Positions 8,481-11,761 of a DNA stretch of 57,756 nt are shown one piece after another. Origin of the DNA: Thermodesulfobacterium thermophilum DSM 1276 (GTDB taxonomy: Bacteria; Desulfobacterota; Thermodesulfobacteria; Thermodesulfobacteriales; Thermodesulfobacteriaceae); NCBI RefSeq assembly GCF_000421605.1, contig NZ_ATXI01000013.1:1-57756 (forward strand). Reading direction: 5' to 3'. Both the position numbers and the translations under genes were made by a program. Under the pieces are notes generated by a model. The model saw only the letters and a list, made by a program, of their open reading frames with translations, had not been told where the DNA came from and searched no databases. Each line of letters opens with the position of its first letter. Within the stretch, counting starts at the first letter, position 1.

Positions 8481-9788
8481 ATGAAATATTACAAATGCGG
8501 TGGAGAGACCTTCGAGTTAACCCTTAATCCTTTTCCGTTTAAATGTAAAAGGTGTAAAGGAAATGAAGCTCTCATAGAAATCCCTTCTCAAGGCATCAAA
8601 GTTTGTCTCACATGTTTTAATCAAATCTTTGAAAACCGCCTTAAAAACACGATAGAAAGATACAGGATGTTTCGTAACGCCAAAAAGGTGGGTGTTTTTG
8701 TTTCAGGAGGGAAAGACAGTTCTGCCCTTCTTTTTAGTTTAAAGAAGGTTTTTCCTAAGCTGGTTCTTCAAGCTATTCATCTAAACTTAGGTATACAATA
8801 CTATTCAGACCTTGCAGAGGAAACGGTTAGAAAGCTCTGCCAGGAAATCGAGGTTCCTTTATATGTCTATAATATACCTAAGGAAGAAGGCTACTCTATA
8901 GACCATTTTGTACATACTATGTTTAAAAACAAAATCTGCTCTGTATGTGGGGTAATAAAAAGGTATCTTTTTACGAAAATTGCTAAAAACTTGGGCATAG
9001 ATGTTATTGCTACAGGACATCACCTTGACGATACGGTTTCTACCATGCTAACCTTGTTTTTCCAGGGAGATTTTGAGGGCATCGTAAGACTGGGACCGGT
9101 TTTGCCCCCTTTATATCCTGGGCAAGCAACCAAGGTTAAACCTTTTTATCATACCCCAGAAAAAGAGATTTTTTACTATGCAGCTCTCAACAAGATACCT
9201 GTAGAAACTTGCACCTGCCCTCATGGAGAGATTACCCCAAGCAAAAAAAATAAAAAAATCATAGAAGAATGGGAAAAAGAAAATAAACAGTTTAAATATC
9301 AGCTTCTTTCTGTGTTCTTAAAAAAACTTATACCTCTTTTAAAAACTCATCCTGATTACAAACTTTCTTCTTCTGAGTTTAAAAGTTGTGTTAAATGTGG
9401 AGAAATTACCAGTTCTTCTGACGAGATATGTAGTCGCTGTAAAAGGGTTTCTTTGATAGAAAAGTTAGAAGACAAAGAGTTAGAATTAACCCCAGAGAAG
9501 TTTAGAGAGTTTATCGAAAATCATCCCAAAGAGGATTGGATGGTTTTTGACCTTAGAGAAAAAGAGGATTTTGAAAAAGGAGGTTTTGACGGGGCGTTAT
9601 GGATTAATCCTGAGATAGTGCAAGCTTCTTATCGAAAACTGTCTAAACTTTTCAAACCTTACAGAAATAAAACCTTATTTTTTTATTGCTATACCGGAAG
9701 ACTAAGTTATCTTCTCACCTTAAAGCTTAGAAAATTAGGGTTTAAAGCTTTCAACATAAGTTCTCCAGAAAGGTTGCTAACAGGTTAA
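8481..9788 (+). CDS. TtuA/Ncs6-like tRNA 2-thiolation ATPase fused to a C-terminal rhodanese domain
   Basis: Probable tRNA sulfurtransferase. An N-terminal Cys cluster (C6, C22, C25, C42, C45) is followed by a PP-loop adenylation domain with SGGKDS (75-80) and GHHLDDT (179-185). CSVC (C153, C156) and CTC (C244/C246) match the three cysteines that hold the 4Fe-4S cluster in TtuA. A second Cys cluster (CVKC 303-306, CSRC 317-320) closes the TtuA-like part; TtuA has two such zinc ribbons. Residues about 335-435 form a rhodanese-like domain (MVFDLREKEDFEKGGFDGA) with active-site loop CYTGRLS and Cys403. TtuA makes 2-thio-ribothymidine at tRNA position 54 in thermophiles. The fused rhodanese could supply persulfide sulfur (inference). 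The gene stands alone. Confidence 0.85.
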   Translation: MKYYKCGGETFELTLNPFPFKCKRCKGNEALIEIPSQGIKVCLTCFNQIFENRLKNTIERYRMFRNAKKVGVFVSGGKDSSALLFSLKKVFPKLVLQAIHLNLGIQYYSDLAEETVRKLCQEIEVPLYVYNIPKEEGYSIDHFVHTMFKNKICSVCGVIKRYLFTKIAKNLGIDVIATGHHLDDTVSTMLTLFFQGDFEGIVRLGPVLPPLYPGQATKVKPFYHTPEKEIFYYAALNKIPVETCTCPHGEITPSKKNKKIIEEWEKENKQFKYQLLSVFLKKLIPLLKTHPDYKLSSSEFKSCVKCGEITSSSDEICSRCKRVSLIEKLEDKELELTPEKFREFIENHPKEDWMVFDLREKEDFEKGGFDGALWINPEIVQASYRKLSKLFKPYRNKTLFFYCYTGRLSYLLTLKLRKLGFKAFNISSPERLLTG

Positions 9789-9834: not shown

Positions 9835-10536
9835 CTAAGGTTCAAACTCTACCATAAACTTTCTGTATTTTAAAGGGACGTTTCTTTTCTGGCCTGTCAA
9901 GTTTTCTCTTTCCTTAATAGCAAGGGTTTCAAAGTACTTTTTCCAGAGGTTCGAAAAAAATGTCTCCTCTTCTGTTTCTTGAGGTATAGGTTTTATAATC
10001 TCTGCTTGGATCATATGTCCTTTATGACAAAAGACAGCCAGCCCTCTTTTACGGTCATGCAAGATAATTTTTTCGTTTCTAAATCGGTTGGCGAAATGTC
10101 TGGCCAAAGGTATGATCACGTTAAATTCCGGCTCAAAGGCGGCATAGAGATAACCACCTTTCACCTCTTTAAACCTCAAAAAGCCTTTATATCGATGAAT
10201 TTCTCTTCTTACCCTGTTAGCTGTTTTATATATGTGGAAAAAAGCGGGGTCCGAAAAAATTAATCTTTCTTTCCCTGCACTAACAAGAGAGACAATTTGT
10301 TTTAAATCTTCGAAGAACCTATCTTTTTCAGAAAGGCTGTAATAGTATAAAACCTTAAGCACATCTTTATCAACATTTGCTAAAAGCTGGGCTAAACTTG
10401 AAATTTCCTGTTTAAAAAGGCTATCTTGCCTTAACTTAGACTGTTTTTTTAGATTTTGGTCAAACCTGCACACAAGCTCTTGTAACCAACTGTGGTTTTC
10501 TTTTCTCAAGCTAAAAACCTCAAAAGAAAAGTTCAA
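9835..10536 (-). CDS. DUF4130/TIGR03915-like protein, putative DNA metabolism
   Basis: 233-residue protein matching by eye the family that accompanies the radical SAM protein encoded just upstream. Recognisable segments are KTANRVRREIHRYKGFLRF (about 104-122), ARHFANRF and the C-terminal PLKYRKFMVEF. In many bacteria this domain is joined to a uracil-DNA-glycosylase-like domain; here only the DUF4130 part is present. The reaction is unknown. The start is TTG, forced by a TGA three codons upstream in the same frame. It overlaps the radical SAM gene by 17 nt, so translation is probably coupled. Confidence 0.8.
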   Translation of the reverse strand: MNFSFEVFSLRKENHSWLQELVCRFDQNLKKQSKLRQDSLFKQEISSLAQLLANVDKDVLKVLYYYSLSEKDRFFEDLKQIVSLVSAGKERLIFSDPAFFHIYKTANRVRREIHRYKGFLRFKEVKGGYLYAAFEPEFNVIIPLARHFANRFRNEKIILHDRKRGLAVFCHKGHMIQAEIIKPIPQETEEETFFSNLWKKYFETLAIKERENLTGQKRNVPLKYRKFMVEFEP

Positions 10537-11761
10537 GCTGAGTCATCTTAGGTTGAGGTTTAAAGACAAAACTCTGAAGAAAATCTACCTTAGCCTTTTG
10601 GTCTATCATCTTGCCGTTAATTGTTATAAAATATTTAGCCCTTTTTATTACCACGCCAAGTTTTTTTAAACTTTCTAGACTAAGGGAGGTATGTTTACGG
10701 TAATTAAGAATCCTTTTGGCAGAGATTGGTCCTATACCTGGGACTCGAAGAAGTTCGTAGTAAGAGGCCTTCATGATATCTACCGGGAAGTAGTGTAAGT
10801 TTCTTAAAGCCCAGGCTAATTTTGGGTCATAACCTTCTTCAAGGTTAGGACTGTCAGGTGAGAGAAGTTCGTCAACGGTAAAACCATAAAACCTTATCAA
10901 CCAGTCAGCCTGATACAGCCTATGCTCTCTAATAAGTGGAGGGGTCGAGACAGCGGGAAGACGACTATCTTGATTAACCGGAATATAGGCAGAATAGTAA
11001 ACCCTTTTCAACTTATATTTTTTATACAGCTGTTGACTTAGGGTGAGGATGATAAGGTCTGATTCTGGGGAGGCACCAACAATAAGTTGAGTGCTTTGAC
11101 CACCCTTTGCATTATAACCAGAGGGATTCTCTCTAAACTCATCAATTTTTTTAGATATTAATTCAATAATTGACAATAACTCTTTCATGTTTTTTTCAGG
11201 AGCAAGCTTAACCAAAGATTGAGGAGTAGGTAGCTCTAAGTTAACACTAACTCTATCTGCCCATCGGATTGCCTCAACGATCGTTGCCTCCGAAGCTCCT
11301 GGTAAAATCTTAAGGTGAATATACCCATCAAAACCATATTTACGGCGCAATATTTTAACGGTGTCTATCATTTTTTCTAAAGTATAGTCTGCGCTTCTTA
11401 TAATACCAGAGCTTAAAAATAAACCTTCGATGTAGTTTCGACGATAGAATTGATAAGTGACATAAGCAAGTTCCTCAGGCGATAGAAACGTCCTTGGGTG
11501 ATGGTTAGACCTTTTGTTAACACAATAGGCACAATCGTTATGGCACTGGTTGGTTAGAAGTACTTTTAGTAGACTTATACAACGTCCGTCTGAGGTAAAG
11601 GTATGACAGATGCCAAACCTTGAGGCATTCCCTAAGAATGAAGCTTTGTTATTTCTTGTAACCCCACTTGAGGCACAGGAAACATCAAATTTGGCTCCTT
11701 GAGCAAGAAGTTCAAGACGCTCCCATACTTCTTTTTTTTTCTTAACCAGAGGTCCCATCAT
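10520..11761 (-). CDS. Putative DNA modification/repair radical SAM protein (TIGR03916-like)
   Basis: Radical S-adenosylmethionine enzyme of 413 residues. The cluster-binding motif is C73-x3-C77-x2-C80 (CHNDCAYC). Further cysteines at 29, 52 and 61 precede it. The barrel contains GLFLSSGI and HLKILPGAS. Near the C-terminus a helix-hairpin-helix is visible (LLRVPGIGPISAKRILNYR), a common DNA-binding element. The last residues QLELFF match the bacterial sliding-clamp binding motif QL-x-LF. Family members are predicted to act in DNA modification or repair together with the DUF4130 partner; the substrate is not known to me. The start is a double ATG without a Shine-Dalgarno sequence. Confidence 0.87.
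   Translation of the reverse strand: MMGPLVKKKKEVWERLELLAQGAKFDVSCASSGVTRNNKASFLGNASRFGICHTFTSDGRCISLLKVLLTNQCHNDCAYCVNKRSNHHPRTFLSPEELAYVTYQFYRRNYIEGLFLSSGIIRSADYTLEKMIDTVKILRRKYGFDGYIHLKILPGASEATIVEAIRWADRVSVNLELPTPQSLVKLAPEKNMKELLSIIELISKKIDEFRENPSGYNAKGGQSTQLIVGASPESDLIILTLSQQLYKKYKLKRVYYSAYIPVNQDSRLPAVSTPPLIREHRLYQADWLIRFYGFTVDELLSPDSPNLEEGYDPKLAWALRNLHYFPVDIMKASYYELLRVPGIGPISAKRILNYRKHTSLSLESLKKLGVVIKRAKYFITINGKMIDQKAKVDFLQSFVFKPQPKMTQLELFF

Follow-up and report, generated by a model that had tools for sequence, protein, structure and literature searches.

A Predicted β Sliding Clamp-Binding Motif in the TIGR03916 Family of Radical SAM Proteins

Introduction

Known clients of the bacterial β sliding clamp (DnaN), such as UmuC, Pol IV, Pol II, and Hda, carry a penta- or hexapeptide at a flexible terminus, for example the terminal clamp-binding motifs (CBMs) QLNLF of UmuC and QLVLGL of Pol IV. 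The consensus QL[S/D]LF is said to go back to the 2001 work of Dalrymple. The same consensus is given in PMC9690074, and the published definition applied in the present analysis is Q-phi-x-[LM]-[FL] or its hexameric form (PMC11139829). No radical SAM client is listed in the clamp reviews that were searched.

Among radical SAM enzymes the closest described system is SplB (spore photoproduct lyase), which is known to repair DNA, and the radical SAM proteins linked to DUF4130 have been called SplB-like (PMC3765255). These proteins belong to the set TIGR03916 (radical SAM), TIGR03915 (DUF4130), and TIGR03914 (UdgX), where the motifs defining UdgX are described in PMC10359453. A parallel to the UdgX partner is provided by eukaryotic HMCES/SRAP, a covalent abasic-site protein at replication forks (PMC10250235); however, the folds are unrelated, so that the likeness goes no further than analogy, and the DNA analysed here encodes no UdgX.

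The TIGR03916 protein described below resembles the clamp clients in the penta- or hexapeptide at a probably flexible terminus, in the conservation of this peptide across phyla, and in the presence of DnaN in the genome, but differs from them as a radical SAM enzyme with a helix-hairpin-helix (HHH) domain, for which clamp binding is predicted. With SplB it shares radical SAM chemistry, which in TIGR03916 is proposed to take place on DNA, while none of its NCBIfam or Pfam matches is a spore photoproduct lyase family model, it possesses both HHH and CBM, and it is linked to DUF4130/UdgX and not to sporulation. In a literature search covering mostly journals open without subscription, and thus yielding a weak negative, no paper was found that links the TIGR03916 family to the clamp, nor was any mention found of TIGR03916 or of UdgX and radical SAM together.

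The Locus and Its Proteins

The window, that is, the whole analysed stretch of 57,756 nucleotides from Thermodesulfobacterium thermophilum DSM 1276, contains the following features.

10520-11761, minus strand: TIGR03916 radical SAM protein, 413 aa, coding sequence with stop
11522..11545, minus strand: radical SAM [4Fe-4S] motif C73xxxC77xxC80, invariant across 53 aligned orthologues
10691..10783, minus strand: helix-hairpin-helix, residues 327-357 (Pfam HHH_3), probable DNA binding
10541..10603, minus strand: linker, residues 387-407, unconserved and probably disordered (alignment and low pLDDT)
10523..10540, minus strand: predicted C-terminal clamp-binding motif QLELF-F, residues 408-413 (sequence and conservation)
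10522-10520, minus strand: stop codon of the TIGR03916 gene
9835..10536, minus strand: DUF4130 / TIGR03915 partner, TTG start, downstream, sharing 17 nt with the radical SAM gene
10414..10428, minus strand: QDSLF in the DUF4130 protein, candidate for a second, weaker clamp motif in which conservation holds for LF but often fails for Q

The two adjacent, overlapping genes encode proteins above the family thresholds, with 551.2 bits for TIGR03916 (curated cut-off 343.5) and 154.6 bits for TIGR03915 (cut-off 112.25), whereas the third member of the set is missing, since the TIGR03914 uracil-DNA glycosylase domain was absent from the DUF4130 partner in NCBIfam and Pfam searches. The nearest named relative is Thermodesulfobacterium hveragerdense (94% identity). 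Pfam matched both Radical_SAM and HHH_3 in this protein, and the helix-hairpin-helix proposed by the first-pass annotation was thereby found at residues 327-357, with the ComEA-type HHH 2duy as its nearest solved relative by sequence. According to sequence and a low-confidence model (mean pLDDT 58) the closest solved structures are lipoyl synthase, PFL activase, HydE, and ThiH; the model shows a general radical SAM barrel, a fold that does not indicate the substrate. In this AlphaFold model, built on a shallow alignment of four sequences and given low weight, residues 387-413 have pLDDT below 50. For the DUF4130 protein no convincing solved relatives were obtained; the profile matches hit the fused UdgX part. 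An anti-phage defence system was considered and rejected, as PADLOC matched neither of the two proteins.

The C-terminal end of the 413-aa open reading frame (ORF) reads FVFKPQPKMTQLELFF before the stop codon, and the last residues of the protein are KPQPKMTQLELFF, where QLELF matches the CBM. It had been claimed from the sequence that the QLELFF tail fits the bacterial clamp consensus, and this is borne out, as the ORF ends in this way and QLELF agrees with the published definition. The DNA pattern for QLx-L-F plus one codon and a stop occurs three times in the window, where only the match in 10520-11761 terminates an ORF and the other two lie opposite to the genes' strand. Taken with its conservation, the identity of the motif as a CBM is strongly supported.

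The putative target is present in the same genome, which encodes one canonical DnaN above cut-off that aligns over its full length to solved clamps and keeps the ligand-pocket segments SDGHRLAL, PDY, and LMPM. The DnaE of this genome has QATLL as a candidate internal CBM.

Conservation of the Motif

Orthologues were drawn from the class and phylum of the genome and from plasmid records of other phyla, several of which are chromosome-sized; for statistics they were reduced to 30 sequences with less than 70% core identity and compared with 2000 shuffles. Of these 30 divergent tails, 17 contained the published CBM, against 0.83 on average and 5 at most after shuffling. Allowing a slightly broader pattern raised the count to 23 (shuffled: mean 1.3, maximum 6), and the strict QLxLF matched 12 (shuffled: mean 0.06, maximum 3). 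In the same 30 proteins 11,315 core residues contained four CBM matches, as against 17 matched tails in 1,038 tail residues. Among 282 other ORFs, a baseline taken from the window and the orthologue loci, the published CBM occurred within the last 60 residues of only 7 (2.5%). A chance match was rejected on the basis of the shuffles and of these other tails.

In the alignment of 53 proteins the tail differs from one protein to the next in both length and sequence, and only the motif is conserved in it; the motif stands 0-34 residues from the stop. It was recovered in Bacillota, Fusobacteriota, Bacteroidota, Alpha-, Beta-, and Gammaproteobacteria, Gemmatimonadota, and Thermodesulfobacteriota, so that the last residues, whose conservation in orthologues the first-pass annotation had proposed to check, are indeed kept across several phyla, at variable distance from the stop. 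The most usual form in relatives is QLSLF, compared with QLELF in the window. The tails are QLSLF-stop in Lachnospira, QLSLFDSA-stop in Pusillibacter, QLSLF in Subdoligranulum, and QLSIF in Acetoanaerobium; Fusobacterium has QLKLFNLQ-stop, Parabacteroides QLILPFID-stop, Spirosoma QLSLF-stop, and Gemmatirosa QLSLW. Further tails are QLSLL-stop (Rhizobium, A. vitis, and Cupriavidus), QLSLF-stop (Leisingera, Azospirillum, Thioclava, and Methylobacterium), QLSLI-stop (Caballeronia), and QLSLGF-stop (Acinetobacter), members of the window organism's own phylum have QLSLDL, QLELPL, QLDLF, QLWLPF, QLRLF, or QLSLF, and QLTLF and QLNLF are further forms among orthologues. The family also scores above its cut-off in Caulobacter vibrioides, used as a control genome. 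Counting against the clamp reading, several thermophile orthologues have a weakened motif, in which Q is replaced (HPSLF, NLSLF, NLHLF, and PLPLF).

Five proteins from the class of the window organism (family f66) form one sister clade in the tree (support 100/99) that has lost the tail. Their sequences terminate directly behind the HHH domain, and they start with M[WYL]RQASLF.

L052:1444-2598: N-terminal QASLF orthologue
L053:1438-2595: N-terminal QASLF orthologue
L054:1441-2598, minus strand: N-terminal QASLF orthologue
L055:1318-2466: N-terminal QASLF orthologue
L056:1435-2583, minus strand: N-terminal QASLF orthologue

Because the motif sits at the opposite end of the protein where the tail is missing, the sequences suggest that selection acts on a peptide docking function and not on local structure; the arrangement recalls Hda. 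Two short-form relatives of this clade (L051 and L094) have no convincing motif at either end, which counts against the clamp reading. The tree was labelled with a looser pattern than that used for the statistics, and the "C-terminal motif" label of L051 is spurious, as it stems from QTWLL within the folded part of the HHH.

A second short conserved ending, [VIL][TS]GE[LMY], was observed about 10-20 residues past the clamp motif in many members (L002, L066, L098, L099, L100, L101, L103, and L105).

DUF4130 and UdgX Partners

The order radical SAM-DUF4130 is common to the window and its relatives, and across lineages the gene neighbour is DUF4130, either alone or fused to UdgX. The alpha- and betaproteobacterial partners are annotated as UdgX-family; the one that was scanned is a DUF4130-UdgX fusion, and the two motifs that mark true UdgX, GEQPGD and the KRRIH type, are present in the aligned proteobacterial partners. 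In the class of the window organism DUF4130 is encoded in 9 of 41 genomes, and all nine also possess the radical SAM gene.

In a variable loop of the DUF4130 homologues themselves xxLF recurs, and in many cases Q stands three residues ahead of L (QDSLF, QPSLF, QAGLF, QQSLF, and QCGLF). As judged by its sequence, this may possibly be a second, weaker clamp motif.

LexA Boxes and Proposed Damage Control

The sequence GAAC-N7-GAAC precedes the radical SAM start codon by 17-39 bp in all 11 alphaproteobacterial loci of the plasmid collection (L063, L064, L065, L070, L073-L077, L080, and L081), and these sites account for 11 of its 12 matches in 79 kb. The box is also found at -26 in L093, a contig of the viral collection that groups with the alphaproteobacterial loci in the tree. 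Both betaproteobacterial loci (L068 and L069) have CTGT-N8-ACAG, as a near-perfect site of TACTGTATAN4ATACAGTA type, at -27/-29, and in Lachnospira (L057) GAACACATGTTC lies at -6 upstream of the radical SAM gene. All of them are the known LexA boxes of the respective groups. For the Clostridium acetobutylicum pair CAC3343-CAC3344, LexA control has been put forward in the literature (PMC3828012), and desiccation induces an orthologue in Acinetobacter (PMC13130816).

Upstream of the window gene no recognised LexA box was found, other LexA patterns gave nothing convincing, and the organism's own genome, rated 100% complete, yielded no TIGR00498 match for LexA. From the upstream sites we infer damage induction through LexA in proteobacteria and some Bacillota, which is not extended to the window organism.

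Alternative Explanations

It could be supposed that the tail docks the radical SAM protein onto DUF4130 or UdgX instead of the clamp, since the genes are usually adjacent and overlapping. The best argument for such docking is L107:1327-3495, a natural radical SAM-DUF4130 fusion in a 723-aa frame, whose linker is devoid of the CBM, as expected if fusion removes the need for docking, although its DUF4130 domain has QCGLF. On the other hand, 25 of the 34 class genomes having the radical SAM gene are without DUF4130, and many of them keep the motif as QLSLF, QLALF, QLNLF, QTELF, or QIELF; because of this retention the CBM is not simply a DUF4130 dock, and the fit to the clamp consensus extends to both pentameric and hexameric variants (QLSLF, QLSLGF, and QLILPF), so that we regard this explanation as quite unlikely. 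The terminal hydrophobic residues might also be structural, e.g., a last strand packed on the HHH domain, as many proteins have a tail that packs against the rest of the molecule and the model is of too low quality to decide the matter; the highly variable length and sequence of the linker, the changing distance of the motif from the stop, and its transfer to the other protein end in one clade make this very improbable. Even less credible is that overlap with the downstream gene, whose start and ribosome-binding region lie there, imposes the sequence irrespective of protein function. The last 17 nt of the window gene do overlap the DUF4130 start, and stop and start overlap by 1-4 nt in several alphaproteobacteria, but the motif is retained where there is no overlap (Lachnospira, with a 41-nt gap) and where there is no DUF4130, and its codons change synonymously, as in CAA TTG TCG TTG CTG of Rhizobium and CAA TTA TCG TTA TTA of A. 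vitis. The overlapping-gene constraint is thus refuted for the family, and only the third-position choices of the window gene could be affected by it.

An explanation of another kind accepts the link to the clamp and assigns the enzyme a protein (e.g., DnaN or a polymerase) or tRNA as substrate in place of DNA. None of the nearest relatives, which are of lipoyl synthase, HydE, ThiH, and PFL-activase types, acts on DNA; against this stand the HHH domain, the DUF4130-UdgX linkage, and the LexA boxes, and we consider a non-DNA substrate unlikely.

Proposed Function

According to these data the TIGR03916 protein is probably a client of the β sliding clamp, predicted to place its tail in the DnaN pocket and its HHH domain on DNA and to perform radical chemistry together with DUF4130; the sequences are best read as pointing to a clamp-docked radical SAM enzyme that would act on DNA and be induced mostly through the SOS response. 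Conservation of the tag across phyla and the SOS sites in front of many of the genes make clamp-loaded, damaged DNA its probable place of action. The first-pass annotation tied the protein to replication or repair forks; the tie itself is favoured by the clamp motif and by DnaN in the genome, while, given the LexA boxes of the proteobacterial orthologues, "forks" is better replaced by clamp-loaded DNA, in most cases probably following damage.

In the proposed mechanism DNA damage would induce the genes through LexA in proteobacteria and some Bacillota, and the probably flexible tail would offer QLELF to the hydrophobic pocket in which DnaN takes its ligands. DNA may then be kept beside the clamp by the HHH domain, and a nucleotide that is damaged or modified would undergo radical chemistry at the [4Fe-4S]/SAM centre, a DNA substrate being suggested by the context; docking, DNA holding, and chemistry are placed in this order presumptively. 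The enzyme would work with DUF4130, a protein that many proteobacteria have as a fusion to UdgX, the covalent binder of uracil and abasic sites, and the candidate substrates are a lesion near a stalled polymerase or a UdgX-linked abasic site. On this basis TIGR03916 is filed as a putative new family of clamp clients. A bolder version, which we advance tentatively as quite possible, is that it would be the first clamp-tethered radical SAM enzyme, part of an SOS module acting on a lesion or on a UdgX-captured abasic site, with the degenerate xxLF of DUF4130 possibly occupying the second clamp pocket.

If this is true, a widespread family without known function can be located physically at the DnaN pocket and its action timed to the period following DNA damage, a radical SAM enzyme joins the clamp clients, and UdgX becomes tied to the replication and repair machinery, while the role is made testable in a laboratory strain by one small motif mutation.

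Additional Observations

In the viral collection three loci were matched by an alignment search, while the window protein and four further single-sequence queries matched nothing there. TIGR03916 genes are present in phage-labelled records (MT835514.1, other "Bacteriophage sp." entries, and CAKLQH020000003.1), several of which resemble bacterial contigs or host DNA. In the window, positions 8481-9788 on the plus strand encode a TtuA/TtcA-like tRNA thiolation protein whose single chain also carries, at its C-terminus, a rhodanese domain, which possibly represents a built-in sulphur donor.
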